In this document: positions 16,770 to 26,470 of the stretch, piece by piece
How the letters are laid out: each line of letters opens with the position of its first letter
How positions within the stretch are numbered: the first letter of the stretch is position 1
Origin: Oscillospiraceae bacterium
GTDB taxonomy: Bacteria > Bacillota > Clostridia > Oscillospirales > Ruminococcaceae
Length of the DNA: 64,000 nt
Assembly (NCBI GenBank): GCA_018110985.1
Contig: JAGAWT010000010.1
Span: forward strand, 1-64,000
Reading direction: 5' to 3'
The notes under the pieces: generated by a model
Seen by the model: the letters and a program-made list of their open reading frames with translations, nothing else
Database searches by the model: none
Told to the model about the DNA's origin: nothing
Program-made: the position numbers and the translations under genes

Positions 16770-16816
16770 AGTCTTTCAAGGTTATTGGATCAAAGGATAA
16801 TATAAGGGTGAAGAAT

Positions 16817-18472
16817 ATGAAAAAGGAATACAAACAGATAAGGAGGCTCTCTGCCGCTGTGTTGGCGATCCTTCTTGCGGGCTGCTCTTCCTCATCATCC
16901 GAAGGGAATGGAGGAAATACCGCAGACCCCACTGATACCGTAAGCGTAACAGGGGTACAGACCGAGGTGCAGACTCAGGCGACAAATGAGATCTGGAACA
17001 CGGCTACCACTGCCCCCACAGAGGTGCCCGAGCAGACGGAGGAAAAGGTGAATACCGTTTCGGCTCCCGCTGCTGCCGCCTCCCCCATAACAGGCATAGA
17101 GCTTTCCTACTACGATGTGGAGATGGACATTGACGATCAGTTCATGCCTATCGTGACCATGTATCCCGAGGATGCGGAGGACAAGTCCGAGATATGGACA
17201 TCCAGCGACACCTCCGTTGCCACAGTCGATGACAGAGGCCTTATCACAGGTGTTTCCGGGGGCTATGCTACCATCACTGTAGCAAGTGCCGTGAACAGCA
17301 GGGTATTTGCCTGTGTAAGCGTTCATGTGGTGGACTATGACGAGGACTACGACGACGACAGGGTACACGAGATCTATCTCACAGACTACAATTTTACCAT
17401 GGATGTGGGGGACACGGAAATGCCCTATGTCTCCATGTACCCCTCATGGGCGGATGATTTCTCGGAAGACTGGTCATCCTCCGACCCCTCCGTGGCAAAG
17501 GTGGACGGAAAGGGAAATATCACCGCCGTTTCTCCCGGCTATGCGGTCATCACCGTCAAGTCATCCGACAATCCGAAGGTGTTTGCCAGCGTGAGCGTGC
17601 GTGTAAGAGGTGACATGAACGGTGCCGCAGCGGTCTCCGAGGAGCCTTCCGACGGCGACTTCATCACCGTGAACGAGGATGATGAGCCCGGAGCCGTAAA
17701 GCAGATAAACCTGACCTTCTACACCGCTACCCTTGAGACCGGAGGCACTACTCAGCCCATTGTCAGCATGTACCCGGATGATGCCTATGACAAGGGGGAG
17801 ATCTGGTCCTCCTCCGACGAGAATGTAGCCACAGTGGATGAATACGGCAACATTACCGCCGTAGGTGTGGGAGACTGTATCATCACCGTAAAGAGCGAAT
17901 CCAACCCGGATGTGGAGGCAAATGTTTCCGTCAGGGTAAATGCCAGTGCAACAGAACCCACCTACATCGAGGGCATCATCGTTGCCAACAAGACTTATGC
18001 CCTTCCTGCGGATTACGCCCCGGATGTAGACCCTGAGGCGCAGGCAGCCTTCGACGACATGGCAGCGGCAGCGCAGGCCGAAGGCCTCAATCTCTTTGTG
18101 GTGTCGGGCTACCGTTCCTACGACTACCAGTCTACTCTCTATGACAGTTATGTGGCACAGTACGGACAGGAAGCGGCAGACAGGTTCTCTGCCCGTCCCG
18201 GCCATTCCGAGCATCAGACCGGGCTCGCCTTTGATGTAAACACCATTGACGACAGCTTTGCCGACACGCCCGAATATGAATGGCTCAAGGAGCACTGTGT
18301 GGAATACGGCTTTATCATCCGTTACCCCGACGGCAAGGAAAGCGTTACGGGCTACAAGTTCGAGCCCTGGCACATCCGCTATCTGGGCAAGGATACCGCA
18401 AAGGCTGTGGATGACACGGGTCTTACCCTTGAAGAGTACCTCGGCATAGGATCCGAGTACGCCGATCAATAA
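16817..18472 (+). CDS. Lipoprotein with three Big_2 domains and a VanY-type D,D-carboxypeptidase domain
   Basis: 551 residues from the ATG at 16817. Lipobox ILLAGC gives a lipidated C23; a Ser/Thr-rich linker follows. Three Big_2 (bacterial Ig-like) repeats lie at about 92-175, 185-262 and 295-378, each with the W-S/T-S-S-D-x-x-V-A-T/K-V-D and I-T-V motif. The C-terminal M15B peptidase (about 385-540) shows SGYRSYDYQ, the zinc-binding GHSEHQTGLAFD and the FEPWHIRY ligand. It is expected to trim the terminal D-Ala of murein outside the membrane. The Ig repeats probably span or bind the wall. Confidence 0.92.
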   Translation: MKKEYKQIRRLSAAVLAILLAGCSSSSSEGNGGNTADPTDTVSVTGVQTEVQTQATNEIWNTATTAPTEVPEQTEEKVNTVSAPAAAASPITGIELSYYDVEMDIDDQFMPIVTMYPEDAEDKSEIWTSSDTSVATVDDRGLITGVSGGYATITVASAVNSRVFACVSVHVVDYDEDYDDDRVHEIYLTDYNFTMDVGDTEMPYVSMYPSWADDFSEDWSSSDPSVAKVDGKGNITAVSPGYAVITVKSSDNPKVFASVSVRVRGDMNGAAAVSEEPSDGDFITVNEDDEPGAVKQINLTFYTATLETGGTTQPIVSMYPDDAYDKGEIWSSSDENVATVDEYGNITAVGVGDCIITVKSESNPDVEANVSVRVNASATEPTYIEGIIVANKTYALPADYAPDVDPEAQAAFDDMAAAAQAEGLNLFVVSGYRSYDYQSTLYDSYVAQYGQEAADRFSARPGHSEHQTGLAFDVNTIDDSFADTPEYEWLKEHCVEYGFIIRYPDGKESVTGYKFEPWHIRYLGKDTAKAVDDTGLTLEEYLGIGSEYADQ

Positions 18473-18959: not shown

Positions 18960-18988
18960 TTGACTTATCCATTGATATATGTTATAAT
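18960..18988 (+). promoter_or_regulatory. Sigma-A promoter of the 19-29 kb gene run
   Basis: TTGACT (18960-18965), 17 bases, TATAAT (18983-18988). Confidence 0.85.
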
Positions 18989-22093: not shown

Positions 22094-22126
22094 TGATCTT
22101 ATCCGTTGTCATACCGAGGTGATATA

Positions 22127-23008
22127 ATGCAGGCAGATATACTTACCCGCAGCGATTCCACGGAGGTGGAGCTTCTGGAGTTTACCGTGGGGGGAAACAG
22201 CTACGGCATAAACATTTCCAAAGTAAGCGAGATAATGCAGGATTGCGCCATCACCCCCATACCCAATTCACCGGAGGCGGTGGAGGGCGTGATAATACCG
22301 AGAGATCAGCTTATCACCGTAATAGACCTTCACAGGGTGCTGGGATATGAGAGGAAGGATGTTAAGAGCATCTTCATAGTATGCCGGTTCAATGCGGTAA
22401 ACGTGGCGTTCAGAGTGGGCGGAGTAAAAGGCTTTCGCAGGATATCCTGGAGAGAGATAAACGAGCCCCCCTCCCTTATAGCGGGGGAGAATGCCGTTAT
22501 TTCCACGGGAGTGGCAAAGGTAGAGGACAGGATAATAGTCATACTGGATTTTGAAAAGATACTGGCGGACATTGCCGGTGAAACTCCCGCAGACGATATG
22601 AGCACCATAGACAAGGGGCGCATAAGGCATAAGGATGCTCACCTTGTGCTGGTGGATGATTCCCCTTTCCTCCGCAGAAAGGCGGAAAAGGCGCTCAGGG
22701 AGCTGGGATTCACGAATATCACCATGTTTGCCAACGGCGAAGAGGCATGGGATTATCTCTGCGGCACCGGTGAAAAGGTAGACTGCCTTGTGAGCGACAT
22801 AGAGATGCCCATCATGGACGGTATCGCTCTTACGAAGAAGATAAGGGCGGAGGATAAGCTGCGGGATATACCGGTGATACTTTTCTCTTCCCTCATAGAC
22901 GAGAAAATGACGGAAAGGTGCATAGAAGCAGGTGCGCAGGCACAGTATGCAAAGCCCGACCTTGATATTCTGGTGGACCAGATAATAAAGATAACGAATA
23001 AAGAATAG
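22127..23008 (+). CDS. cheV: Chemotaxis coupling protein CheV
   Basis: 293 residues from the ATG at 22127 (GAGGTGATATA upstream). A CheW domain (about 12-155: LLEFTVGGNSYGINISKVSEI; VEGVIIPRDQLITVIDL; VILDFEKIL) is followed by a receiver domain (about 172-293) with the acidic pair LVDDS, phospho-acceptor in CLVSDIEMPIMDG and FSSL/K switch residues. CheV links chemoreceptors to CheA and adapts by phosphorylation. No other chemotaxis or flagellar gene is in the window. Confidence 0.93.
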   Translation: MQADILTRSDSTEVELLEFTVGGNSYGINISKVSEIMQDCAITPIPNSPEAVEGVIIPRDQLITVIDLHRVLGYERKDVKSIFIVCRFNAVNVAFRVGGVKGFRRISWREINEPPSLIAGENAVISTGVAKVEDRIIVILDFEKILADIAGETPADDMSTIDKGRIRHKDAHLVLVDDSPFLRRKAEKALRELGFTNITMFANGEEAWDYLCGTGEKVDCLVSDIEMPIMDGIALTKKIRAEDKLRDIPVILFSSLIDEKMTERCIEAGAQAQYAKPDLDILVDQIIKITNKE

Positions 23009-23016
23009 GAAAGAAT

Positions 23017-25578
23017 ATGAAATACGTTGAAAGAGAAATAGATTCCGAGATACCTCTTGAAAACCTGAAGCTGTCCAACAGAGCCTTCAACTCCCTGCGC
23101 CGTGCGGGGATACTCACATACAGAGACCTTATGCTCCTTACCCCGGCAGATCTGACGGATATACAGAATCTGGGAGAAAAGAGCATATCCGAGATAATCA
23201 GCCTTCAGGAGGAATACCTTGAAAACCCGCCTGCCACCATAGTTCCCAATGAGGTGGACAATATCGTGGAGGATTACAAGGTCTTTGAGTACAACGGAAT
23301 GTATTTCAAAAACTATGCCCTGGAGGACACAGACCTTTCATCCCGCCCCTATAACTGCCTGAGAAATGCGGGGATAAACACTCTTTCCGAGCTTCTGATG
23401 CTGAGCGACAGAGAAATAGCGGGTCTGCAGAACCTGGGGAAAAAGTCCGCTCTGGAGATAAAGGAGATGATAAAGAGGTACACTGCTCCCTCCAACTCCG
23501 TAAGCTACGACAGTGCGGAATTTTCCAGCAAAAGGCAGATCGTGATAGCCATACATGACGAGATACTGCGTATACTTGCGGAAAATGCGGACACGGGGCT
23601 CTCCGGTGAGGATCTTATGAGCAGCCTTACCAACAGGTATACAGCCGCCGATGTAAAAAATGTCCTGAAGAAGATGAAGGACAACTCGCAGGTGGTGTGC
23701 TGCGACGGCGTTTACATACAGGCTCTGCCCTCTTTCAGGGAAATAGTGGAAAGCAGCACCAACGAAAAGCAGAAGAAGGTCTTTGCACGCAGGCTGGAGG
23801 GCGCAACTCTTGAACAGGTAGCGATAGAGGAAGGGCTCACAAGGGAGCGCATAAGGCAGATAGAAAAGAGGGTGCTGGCTATCATTGCCGCCAACGGTCC
23901 AGTCAGGGAGGACAGGTTCGGATACCTTTTCTCCAGGTATGATGTGGACAAGGACGCCTTTTCCAGGATAACCGGTGAGGAAGAGGATGTGTATATGTAC
24001 CTTGCCCTTAAATACAGGGTGAGGGGAGACAAGCTGCTGGCTGTGGCTCATGAGGACACAAGGCTGCCCGCACCCATCCGCACGGCCATACACCGTGCCT
24101 TCGGGGACTACATCACGGTGGACGGCATAAAGGTGCGCCTTACACGGACATCCGTAGAAAGGTTCATCATAGAGACCCGCTGCATAGAGGAGGTCAGGTT
24201 CGACGAATTCTATGAGATGTACAGGAGCTTTATAAAGGAACATTCTCTTCAGGGACACAGGAACCTTATGACCACCGAGGGGATGTACCGCACCTTTGAA
24301 AACTATGTTTCTCAGTCAAGGATAGTCCTGTGGAAGCAGAACAGGCGCTTCCGGTACTACGACATAGATGCGGGAGACTATACGGAGCTGCTGTCCACTC
24401 TCGATCTGGAGCGTTACAGGGATGTGCATTACTCCGCCCTCAAATTCTTCAACAAGTACCCCGAGGTCATGGAGCGCTACGACATAAGGGACGAATACGA
24501 GCTTCATAACCTGCTGAGAAAGATCTACGAAAAGAAGGGCAACACATACATAAAGTTCAACAAGATGCCCATGATAGAGTTCGGGGAGTTTGACAGGGAT
24601 GAGGCTGTAAGGCAGCTCATGTTCTCCCTTGCACCCATATCCATTGACGACCTTTCCAAGATAATGTATGATGAATACGGGATACGCCCCCCTACGGTAA
24701 AGTCCAACTGGTTCAATGCCATTTCGGATTACTACATCAACGGTATGTACATCACCACCGAAAAGCCCCTGCCGGAGGAGGATACGGAGCTTCTCAAAAA
24801 GAAGCTGAAGGCGGATTTCTACTATATCTCCGAGATAAAGGATATCTACAAAAAGCTGCGGCCGGATGCGGATCTTTCGCTCATATCCTCATTCAACCTG
24901 AGAAGACTGGGCTTTACGGTAAATTCCACCTATGTGATCTCCGACAAATACCCTTCCGCAAGGCAGTATTTCTCCGCCATACTCACCGCAAAGGAAAGAA
25001 TGGATATCTCCGAGCTTTCCGCCAGGTACACGGGCATCGTCAGCTTCTCCGACAACCTTTCGAGGCTCAAGGACAACTACCGCATCATAGAGTACGCCCC
25101 CTACCACATCATAAACAGCAAGGGCTACCAGAAAATGGGTATAAACATCAGAAAGATAAAGACATTCTGTGACGATGTGGCGGATTTTGTGGATGATGAT
25201 GTTTACTTTACCGTGGAGCTGATAAGAAGCGAGGGCTTTGAATCCGCTCTTGACGATCTCCCCTTCGGAAACTGGTTCTTTTCCTCCCTTTTGCGAGAGG
25301 ATGACCGCTTCACCCACCAGAAAATGGGAAGGACGGTGCTTTTCCTCAAGGGCAGCAAAGCCATAAACCGTGCCCACTTCATACTTGATTTCATAAACAG
25401 CACCGAGTACAGGCGCATAAACGAGATAAGGGCGCAGATATTCGACATCTATGGCATAGATGTGGTGAGATGGGATATAATCTCCGCTGCCGAGGGACAC
25501 GGCTACTATCATGACAGGGACGATGATGTGCTCATAGAGACTGCTTTGTCCTGCGCTCATACGGAGGACGGGGAATAA
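23017..25578 (+). CDS. Large protein with two RNA polymerase alpha-CTD-like domains and a sigma region-4-like HTH
   Basis: 853 residues; ribosome site TAGGAAAG, 8 bases after cheV. Residues about 12-65 and 100-153 each look like the RNA polymerase alpha C-terminal domain. The second keeps the DNA/UP-element contact set (R110, N113, C114, L115 and G141-K-K-S144); the first keeps R22, N25, L27 and G53-E-K-S56 with Ser for Cys at 26. Residues about 175-235 look like a winged helix. Residues about 258-290 (GATLEQVAIEEG then TRERIRQIEKR) match sigma-70 region 4.2. About 560 further residues have helix-turn-wing-like segments but no motif I can name. No catalytic motif seen. Most likely a DNA-binding transcription factor that mimics polymerase promoter contacts; this is inference. 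Near-contiguous with the following LCP-like gene (1 base). Confidence 0.75.
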   Translation: MKYVEREIDSEIPLENLKLSNRAFNSLRRAGILTYRDLMLLTPADLTDIQNLGEKSISEIISLQEEYLENPPATIVPNEVDNIVEDYKVFEYNGMYFKNYALEDTDLSSRPYNCLRNAGINTLSELLMLSDREIAGLQNLGKKSALEIKEMIKRYTAPSNSVSYDSAEFSSKRQIVIAIHDEILRILAENADTGLSGEDLMSSLTNRYTAADVKNVLKKMKDNSQVVCCDGVYIQALPSFREIVESSTNEKQKKVFARRLEGATLEQVAIEEGLTRERIRQIEKRVLAIIAANGPVREDRFGYLFSRYDVDKDAFSRITGEEEDVYMYLALKYRVRGDKLLAVAHEDTRLPAPIRTAIHRAFGDYITVDGIKVRLTRTSVERFIIETRCIEEVRFDEFYEMYRSFIKEHSLQGHRNLMTTEGMYRTFENYVSQSRIVLWKQNRRFRYYDIDAGDYTELLSTLDLERYRDVHYSALKFFNKYPEVMERYDIRDEYELHNLLRKIYEKKGNTYIKFNKMPMIEFGEFDRDEAVRQLMFSLAPISIDDLSKIMYDEYGIRPPTVKSNWFNAISDYYINGMYITTEKPLPEEDTELLKKKLKADFYYISEIKDIYKKLRPDADLSLISSFNLRRLGFTVNSTYVISDKYPSARQYFSAILTAKERMDISELSARYTGIVSFSDNLSRLKDNYRIIEYAPYHIINSKGYQKMGINIRKIKTFCDDVADFVDDDVYFTVELIRSEGFESALDDLPFGNWFFSSLLREDDRFTHQKMGRTVLFLKGSKAINRAHFILDFINSTEYRRINEIRAQIFDIYGIDVVRWDIISAAEGHGYYHDRDDDVLIETALSCAHTEDGE

Positions 25579-25579
25579 A

Positions 25580-26470
25580 ATGTCAAAGAAGACTTTCAAG
25601 ATCATAATAACCTATGTGCTCGCCTTTTTCACTGCACTTGCAGTCATAGGCGGCGCAGGCCTGATACTTATAAACAGGTATCAGGCAGAGCAGACGGAAA
25701 AGAATTCTGCCAAAACCGCCGAGGAGGACAGCAGCTTCATCCCCGGGGAGCTCGATTCCATGACTGTGCTGGGCGTGTATGATGCGTCGCAGAGGCCTTC
25801 GGGAGTGTGCTTTGTACTGTTCAGGCTCTCCGCCGAGCAGCAGAAGCTCTATGTCACTCCTCTCCATTCCGACCTTGAAACGGGAGGGTCGAGCCTTTAC
25901 GATGTGTACACCGCAGGGGGGATCACCGCTGCAAGGGATGTGCTGGAGCAGGTGCTTAAAATAGGCATAGACAAGTATATGCTCATAACCTCCCAGAGCT
26001 TCAGTATCTTTTCCGACAGCTGCGGAAACATTTCCTACAATGTTCCCTACAATCTTATATATACCTCTGCCGACCCGGACGAAAACACCATCATCCGTGA
26101 GGGGAGCCTTATCCTTGACACAAAGAACCTGAGGAGAGTGCTCACCTTCCCGGAATACACAGATGGTGAGGAAGAAAGGATGCTCATTCTGGGCAACCTT
26201 ACGGTGGAGCTGATAAACAACGGCTGCCGTTCAACCTTCCGCTCCAACAGGGAGGATGTGTATAATTCCCTTGTGGCTGCGGGAGCGGCTACGGACATAA
26301 GTATATATGATATGCAGGACATAAGCCCTGCAACGGACTATATACTTGAACGAAGCAAAAGCCCTGCTTCATTGCTCCTGCCCTCCGGCGGGTACAACGA
26401 AGAGGGGCGCTATGAGCCGGAGCCTTCGTTCTTAGAGGCTCTGCCCAGATGGTACGGGATAAAAGAGTGA
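25580..26470 (+). CDS. Divergent LytR-CpsA-Psr (LCP) family membrane protein
   Basis: 296 residues. One N-terminal helix (about 6-31), then an extracytoplasmic domain. The order TVLGVYDAS..., VCFVLFRLS...[46 protein letters not shown] and [10 protein letters not shown] follows the LCP fold (LytR: LLLGxD, xxxIPRDT, AYxxGG, VNFxxF, VDVP). However, the arginine/aspartate-rich polyprenyl-phosphate contacts are replaced, so wall-polymer ligase activity is doubtful. GGGGAATAAA precedes the ATG, one base after the upstream stop. Confidence 0.65.

Follow-up and report, generated by a model that had tools for sequence, protein, structure and literature searches.

A stand-alone protein with two alpha-CTD-like domains, a sigma region 4-like helix-turn-helix, and a predicted winged-helix array, related to proteins of defense-like gene cassettes

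An 853-amino acid protein encoded at 23017..25578 on the forward strand of the DNA analyzed here (a stretch of 64,000 nucleotides, hereafter the window) carries two domains like the C-terminal domain of the RNA polymerase alpha subunit (alpha-CTD) and one like region 4 of sigma factors (sigma4), together with a predicted array of winged helices. We use SIG as a label for this protein and its relatives. The explanation that best fits the evidence as a whole, to which we give an even chance, is that SIG proteins are a defense-type DNA-recognition family, and that the window copy has been kept alone as a DNA-binding regulator.

The SIG reading frame is unbroken, with zero internal stops, and is located on contig C28 of G000, the 2.3-Mb genome (estimated completeness 100%) of a rumen-type gut bacterium. 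As an earlier, preliminary description had it, the gene is flanked by cheV and by a gene of the LCP type. cheV (CheW plus response regulator; 22106..23008, +) lies directly upstream with an 8-nt gap, and an AGGAAAG ribosome site stands ahead of the SIG start codon (8 nt past the cheV stop). The LCP-like gene (25580..26470, +), with a LytR_cpsA_psr score of 24.4 bits that is slightly below the Pfam cut-off of 24.6, begins 1 nt past the SIG stop; it had been called divergent, which, if orientation was meant, is incorrect, because it is on the same strand as SIG. SIG is probably cotranscribed with the cheV operon. The best promoter-like site (TTGACT-17-TATAAT, with TG before the second hexamer; 18960..18988, +), recognized solely by its 11/12 consensus matches, stands ahead of an rlmI-like gene and is a possible start for a transcription unit comprising the rlmI-like, DUF, C39 peptidase, cheV, and SIG genes. 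Elsewhere in the window (16808-18472), a secreted protein can be read from the sequence that has Ig-like (BIG2-type) repeats and resembles a VanY D-Ala-D-Ala carboxypeptidase at its C-terminus.

Pfam detects RNA_pol_A_CTD in SIG at E 3e-32 in two stretches (best, residues 9-62). When the whole genome is searched in six frames, the two domains score 62 and 61.3 bits (PF03118; E ~1e-16 each, cut-off 23.8), and the third match of the genome is the real rpoA, which is separate (G000:C19). The first domain, of the helix-hairpin-helix kind, spans residues ~5-72 (23029..23232, +; helices at 7-69 in an AlphaFold2 model) and the second residues ~98-160 (23308..23496, +); profile-profile comparison of the two returns a probability of 99.6. 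The sigma-70 region 4-like helix-turn-helix, delimited by profile match and conservation to residues 238-296 (23728..23904, +), matches Sigma70_r4 (PF04545) over 250-287 with 27.7 bits (cut-off 24.1, E 1.9e-6), although the likeness extends from ~239 to 290; its recognition helix, TRERIRQIEKR, occupies residues 275-285. Sequence matches in the PDB are to alpha-CTDs (best 4noi and 3ihq/1z3e, at ~1e-8) and also to RpoS region 4 (E 0.002), and the other Pfam matches are to HhH and, weakly, to KORA. The scores of the two alpha-CTDs and of sigma region 4 all lie far beyond chance. Thus, the two kinds of domain proposed in the preliminary description from the sequence are confirmed by profile searches; absence of a profile match and an unrelated enzyme fold were both looked for, and neither occurred.

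The residues that had been singled out earlier (R110, N113, C114, G141-K-K-S144, and the TRERIRQIEKR helix) are all present, and most of the contact positions are kept in an alignment of 36 relatives, 32/36 of which match Sigma70_r4 and 30/36 RNA_pol_A_CTD. Counting the rows that cover each position, alpha-CTD copy 1 keeps R22 (30/31), N25 (29/31), G53 (31/34), and K55 (29/34), which are the equivalents of R265, N268, G296, and K298 of Escherichia coli alpha. Copy 2 keeps R110 (30/33) and G141 (29/32), and its C114, K142, and K143 are variable. Within sigma4, R276 (34/35), E277 (33/35), R278 (33/35), R280 (32/34), and Q281 (33/34) are kept and correspond to R584, E585, R586, R588, and Q589 of sigma70. 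The targets of alpha-CTD are the AT-rich minor groove and activators; those of sigma region 4 are −35 DNA and the beta-flap. Because the domain identities and the conservation of contact residues hold, it is reasonable to suppose that SIG reads DNA through these promoter-reading modules.

The C-terminal ~560 residues had been described as having no recognized domain. This stands as far as Pfam is concerned, which finds no match there, but a tandem winged-helix array is predicted by structural modeling. The AlphaFold2 model (36 relatives in the alignment) has a pLDDT of 84.9 and a pTM of 0.44, so that the individual domains can be relied on but not their relative placement. Its secondary structure repeats the order helix-helix-helix-strand-strand; ~8 such winged-helix-like units follow sigma4 and one precedes it (the count is our own judgment of the model). 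Model, Foldseek, and conservation place the array at residues ~336-845 (24022..25551, +), and the single preceding unit is predicted at residues 162-238 (23500..23730, +; helices 166-189, 197-204, and 210-222, strands 226-229 and 232-235). Foldseek matches include the winged-helix arrays of UFL1/DDRGK1 (8b9x, E 9e-4), SelB WH2-WH4, and STK19, as well as alpha-CTDs (TM 0.80-0.88 on the small target). Profile comparison among the SIG units gives probabilities of 85 for WH5-WH9 and 47 for WH1-WH5. We considered whether this region could be an enzyme, and model and Foldseek rule that out (winged helices, no enzyme fold). Between sister species the C-terminal part is 62%–65% identical, compared with 48%–51% for the N-terminal part, and a hallmark motif, YDIRDxYELHNLLRK, lies at residues 488-502. 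It should be noted that the family is acidic overall (net charge −22 for the window protein), with positive net charge in the window SIG only in sigma4, the second alpha-CTD, and some winged-helix units. Because the net charge is mostly negative, much of the array may not bind DNA; it would probably serve mainly as a protein scaffold rather than as a DNA wrap.

SIG cannot be classed as an alpha subunit or as a sigma factor, because the alpha-NTD that would precede the alpha-CTDs and sigma region 2 (at E ≤ 1) were both not found by Pfam; it shares only the alpha-CTD with the former and only region 4 with the latter. The same two absences bear on the possibility that SIG is an RNA polymerase-associated factor. 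Its sigma4 would then dock on the beta-flap and/or −35 DNA, its alpha-CTDs would contact UP elements or activators, and the protein would compete with or remodel the holoenzyme at promoters. A polymerase-bound or decoy role of this kind, which the preliminary description put forward together with promoter mimicry as hypothetical roles, is a live rival, given that sigma region 4 likeness spans residues ~239 to 290, that both kinds of module are established to contact promoters or activators in RNA polymerase, and that the window SIG belongs to a household operon and is under purifying selection. Nevertheless, we consider it unlikely: in addition to the missing sigma region 2 and alpha-NTD, the genes that accompany the family encode nucleases, helicases, and ParB proteins, not transcription functions.

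Relatives were sought with an alignment-based scan of 84,980 species (one genome per species), which yielded 38, mostly in Oscillospiraceae, Lachnospiraceae, and Erysipelotrichaceae, with single relatives labeled Treponema and Succinivibrionaceae; same-genus relatives are labeled Oscillospiraceae (goat abomasum) and Ruminococcus. Within the order, 7/394 genomes match SIG from sigma4 onward. A protein-only scan of genome contigs gave no match, and relatives were not found in phage records or viral contigs. Fifty plasmid records (PLSDB), mostly mobilizable or conjugative, also match, 48/50 of them from Enterococcus.

Two gene layouts recur. In layout A, a HEPN_Swt1 domain fused to a ParB-like domain is followed by SIG and a small HIRAN protein; in layout B, SIG is followed by a 400-aa ParB-like protein and then by an SNF2-type helicase that often carries an HKD nuclease at its N-terminus. 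Among the 38 relatives, a ParB-fold gene is adjacent in 24 (counted from two ParB queries, read by position), a HIRAN gene in 13, and a helicase in nine. The Pfam match of the ParB-like partner is below cut-off, so its identity is taken from an AlphaFold model (pLDDT 89.7, pTM 0.81) and Foldseek, which returns ParB, Noc, and Spo0J. HEPN_Swt1 of layout A scores 79 bits with its RxxxxH intact, the HIRAN partner is a Pfam match, and a PbeA score of 247 bits is returned for the HKD portion of the layout B helicase. One distant relative adjoins a PbeC/DndD-type ATPase and a cysteine desulfurase (the latter named from sequence). Genes beyond the cassette borders are defense genes only sometimes, and the PADLOC models used call neither SIG nor the ParB-fold partner as a component of its own. 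We term the cassettes defense-like because the partners are HEPN_Swt1, HKD/PbeA, helicase, and HIRAN proteins, and because of islands with PbeC/DndD- or BrxC-like ATPases; both layouts look like uncharacterized defense cassettes. Their SIG proteins are ~28%–35% identical to the window protein over most of its length. Partners are not obligatory for the family, however, given that eight of the 38 relatives, with good flanks on both sides, are orphans as well (no ParB, HIRAN, or helicase).

Several of these loci deserve mention in their own right. Layout A occurs in gut Clostridia, many from ruminants (L038:4887-10011; also L058, L066, L073, and others), and two Enterococcus plasmids carry SIG, ParB-fold, and SNF2 helicase genes annotated as HTH protein, hypothetical, and helicase (L094:7197-12934 and L095:7179-12854). 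Tandem paralogs of ~663 aa adjoin a full-length copy at L051:7294-9285 and L064:11709-13700; they have the C-terminal array and lack the alpha-CTD and sigma4 part. Two Erysipelotrichaceae orphans (L090:8218-10800 and L091:5565-8048) both lie near a Sel1-repeat gene and a TldD-like gene, which suggests a second, independent stable orphan lineage. Another distant relative, a 1108-aa alpha-CTD and sigma4 protein at L055:5506-8832 that matches the window SIG over no more than 40 residues of sigma4, adjoins a PAPS-reductase-like protein and a BrxC-like ATPase (named from sequence), possibly as part of a BREX type 4 or Dnd-like island. A 221-aa protein at L040:3221-3886 has the reverse order (sigma4-like HTH, then alpha-CTD-like) and is located within a prophage-like region that also encodes SSB and HTH regulators, as read from sequence, and a 396-aa protein with several alpha-CTD/HhH-like repeats (L041:3801-4991) adjoins a metallophosphoesterase and SMC-like ATPase pair (SbcD/SbcC-like).

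Comparison with known systems points in the same direction as the cassettes. In BREX type 2 PglW, wHTH modules come after an alpha-CTD-like domain (PMC12839542), a combination that SIG shares. However, the NERD nuclease, Ser/Thr kinase, and iSTAND ATPase of PglW are absent from the window SIG by Pfam, and PglW is described without the sigma4 that SIG has. The PADLOC PglW match to SIG (30 bits) covers the alpha-CTD, and the ncbifam PglW score is 26 bits against a cut-off of 990. Sigma-type HTHs are part of other defense components, including BrxL (PMC12839542), DndH (PMC10853773), and MzaA of the MZA system; the match of MzaA to SIG is confined to sigma4 (19 bits) and the rest of its architecture differs. 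With regard to CxC/PbeABCD, a homolog of SIG in G029 lies inside such an island and layout B is linked to these systems by the PbeA score of its HKD nuclease, but PbeABCD genes are absent beside the window SIG, and the recurring genes of layout B include no PbeC-type ATPase. Another close counterpart is WP_241408356.1 of Enterococcus faecalis, called “sigma factor-like helix-turn-helix DNA-binding protein” in its plasmid record, which matches SIG residues 255-833 (26.6% identity, E 4e-44) and has layout B neighbors; it has no alpha-CTD match, whereas the window SIG has no ParB or helicase partner. The modules in PglW (PMC12839542), BrxL, and DndH indicate that defense systems have taken up RNA polymerase-like DNA readers repeatedly. 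These precedents, and partners that are ParB, SNF2/HKD, HEPN_Swt1, and HIRAN proteins and include no transcription genes, argue for reading SIG proteins as DNA-recognition subunits of defense-type complexes.

Aravind and Iyer are said to have noted, in 2012 (Cell Cycle 11:119), bacterial proteins that combine alpha-subunit and sigma-factor features in one chain with a HARE-HTH. SIG shares with these the alpha-CTD-like domain and sigma-like HTH, with a winged-helix-like unit between the two. HARE-HTH (PF05066) has no match in the SIG proteins of eight genomes (E ≤ 1) or among the 36 aligned relatives (0.01), and we do not class SIG as a HARE-HTH protein; residues 162-238, where the winged-helix-like unit is predicted, might be a diverged version.

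The window copy has no ParB-fold, helicase, or HIRAN gene beside it. ParB and helicase relatives are not detectable anywhere in G000 (the positive controls G043, G229, and G029 match) or in G011 and G019, the only other members of the genus in which SIG was found (3/20 genomes in all; 1/8 of those of high quality). The DUF/C39 peptidase/cheV order is widespread in the genus (preceded by the rlmI-like gene in loci that extend far enough), and SIG follows cheV only in these three; hence, it was most likely gained downstream from cheV in that lineage. The LCP-like gene follows SIG in G000 and G019, and does not in G011. In a quick tree, the window SIG and its sister join at 100 within a 20-row layout A clade (99), and nearest to the pair are two relatives without visible partners (85), one of which (L076) ends at a contig border.

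SIG is under purifying selection at about the rate of cheV: its pN/pS is 0.33-0.53, compared with 0.32-0.36 for cheV, 0.52 for the C39 gene, and 0.41 for the LCP gene, these ratios being rough because synonymous sites are near saturation. That SIG is a nonfunctional remnant of a lost cassette might be suspected from the missing partner genes and from its absence from most genus members. We reject this as extremely unlikely, in view of the intact 853-codon frame, the conserved contact residues, the pN/pS, and the orthologs in two other species, which are intact over their recovered parts. Alternatively, the orphan may still defend the cell, alone or with unrelated partners, for example by silencing invading DNA or its promoters. 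Descent from a family found mostly in defense-like cassettes and a lineage-limited distribution in the genus are consistent with this, but it seems decidedly unlikely for a protein that occupies the same post-cheV position in three divergent species at a cheV-like rate, that has no nuclease, ATPase, or other effector domain, and the known partners of which are absent from the genome.

The explanation that we favor may be put as follows. The SIG family would have borrowed both upstream-promoter readers of RNA polymerase, alpha-CTD for the AT-rich minor groove and sigma region 4 for the −35 major groove. In most relatives, SIG would act with the ParB-fold protein as the DNA-recognition subunit of a defense-type system, alongside either an SNF2 helicase (often HKD-fused) or a HEPN RNase domain together with a HIRAN protein. 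In the window lineage, SIG would have arrived after cheV without partners, been kept by purifying selection and expressed with the cheV operon, and now be a stand-alone DNA-binding protein, probably regulatory. A more specific version, which we offer as speculation and think improbable in its entirety, is that the family spots incoming DNA by its promoters (through jointly read UP/−35-like sites, or RNA polymerase there) and hands it to ParB and nuclease/helicase or HEPN effectors, the window member being a domesticated regulator of host genes that uses the same surface without an effector.

Relatives are already listed in databases as “sigma factor-like helix-turn-helix DNA-binding protein,” and the combination of alpha and sigma domains in one protein was reportedly noted by Aravind and Iyer in 2012. 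In the limited library searched, we found nothing on the alpha-CTD and sigma4 pair beyond the papers cited, and neither the winged-helix array nor either cassette nor the orphan form was described there; as far as could be found, the array, both cassettes, and the history of the orphan are new here. Proteins so far named only “sigma factor-like helix-turn-helix” thus gain a testable identity, in which the predicted winged-helix array is the conserved core. The ParB-fold, HKD-SNF2 helicase, HEPN, and HIRAN partners predict a family of uncharacterized defense systems, also present on Enterococcus plasmids, whose alpha/sigma protein lies outside the PADLOC models used here. If our reading is true, the window SIG would be a defense-type DNA reader that has been kept as a stand-alone host protein.
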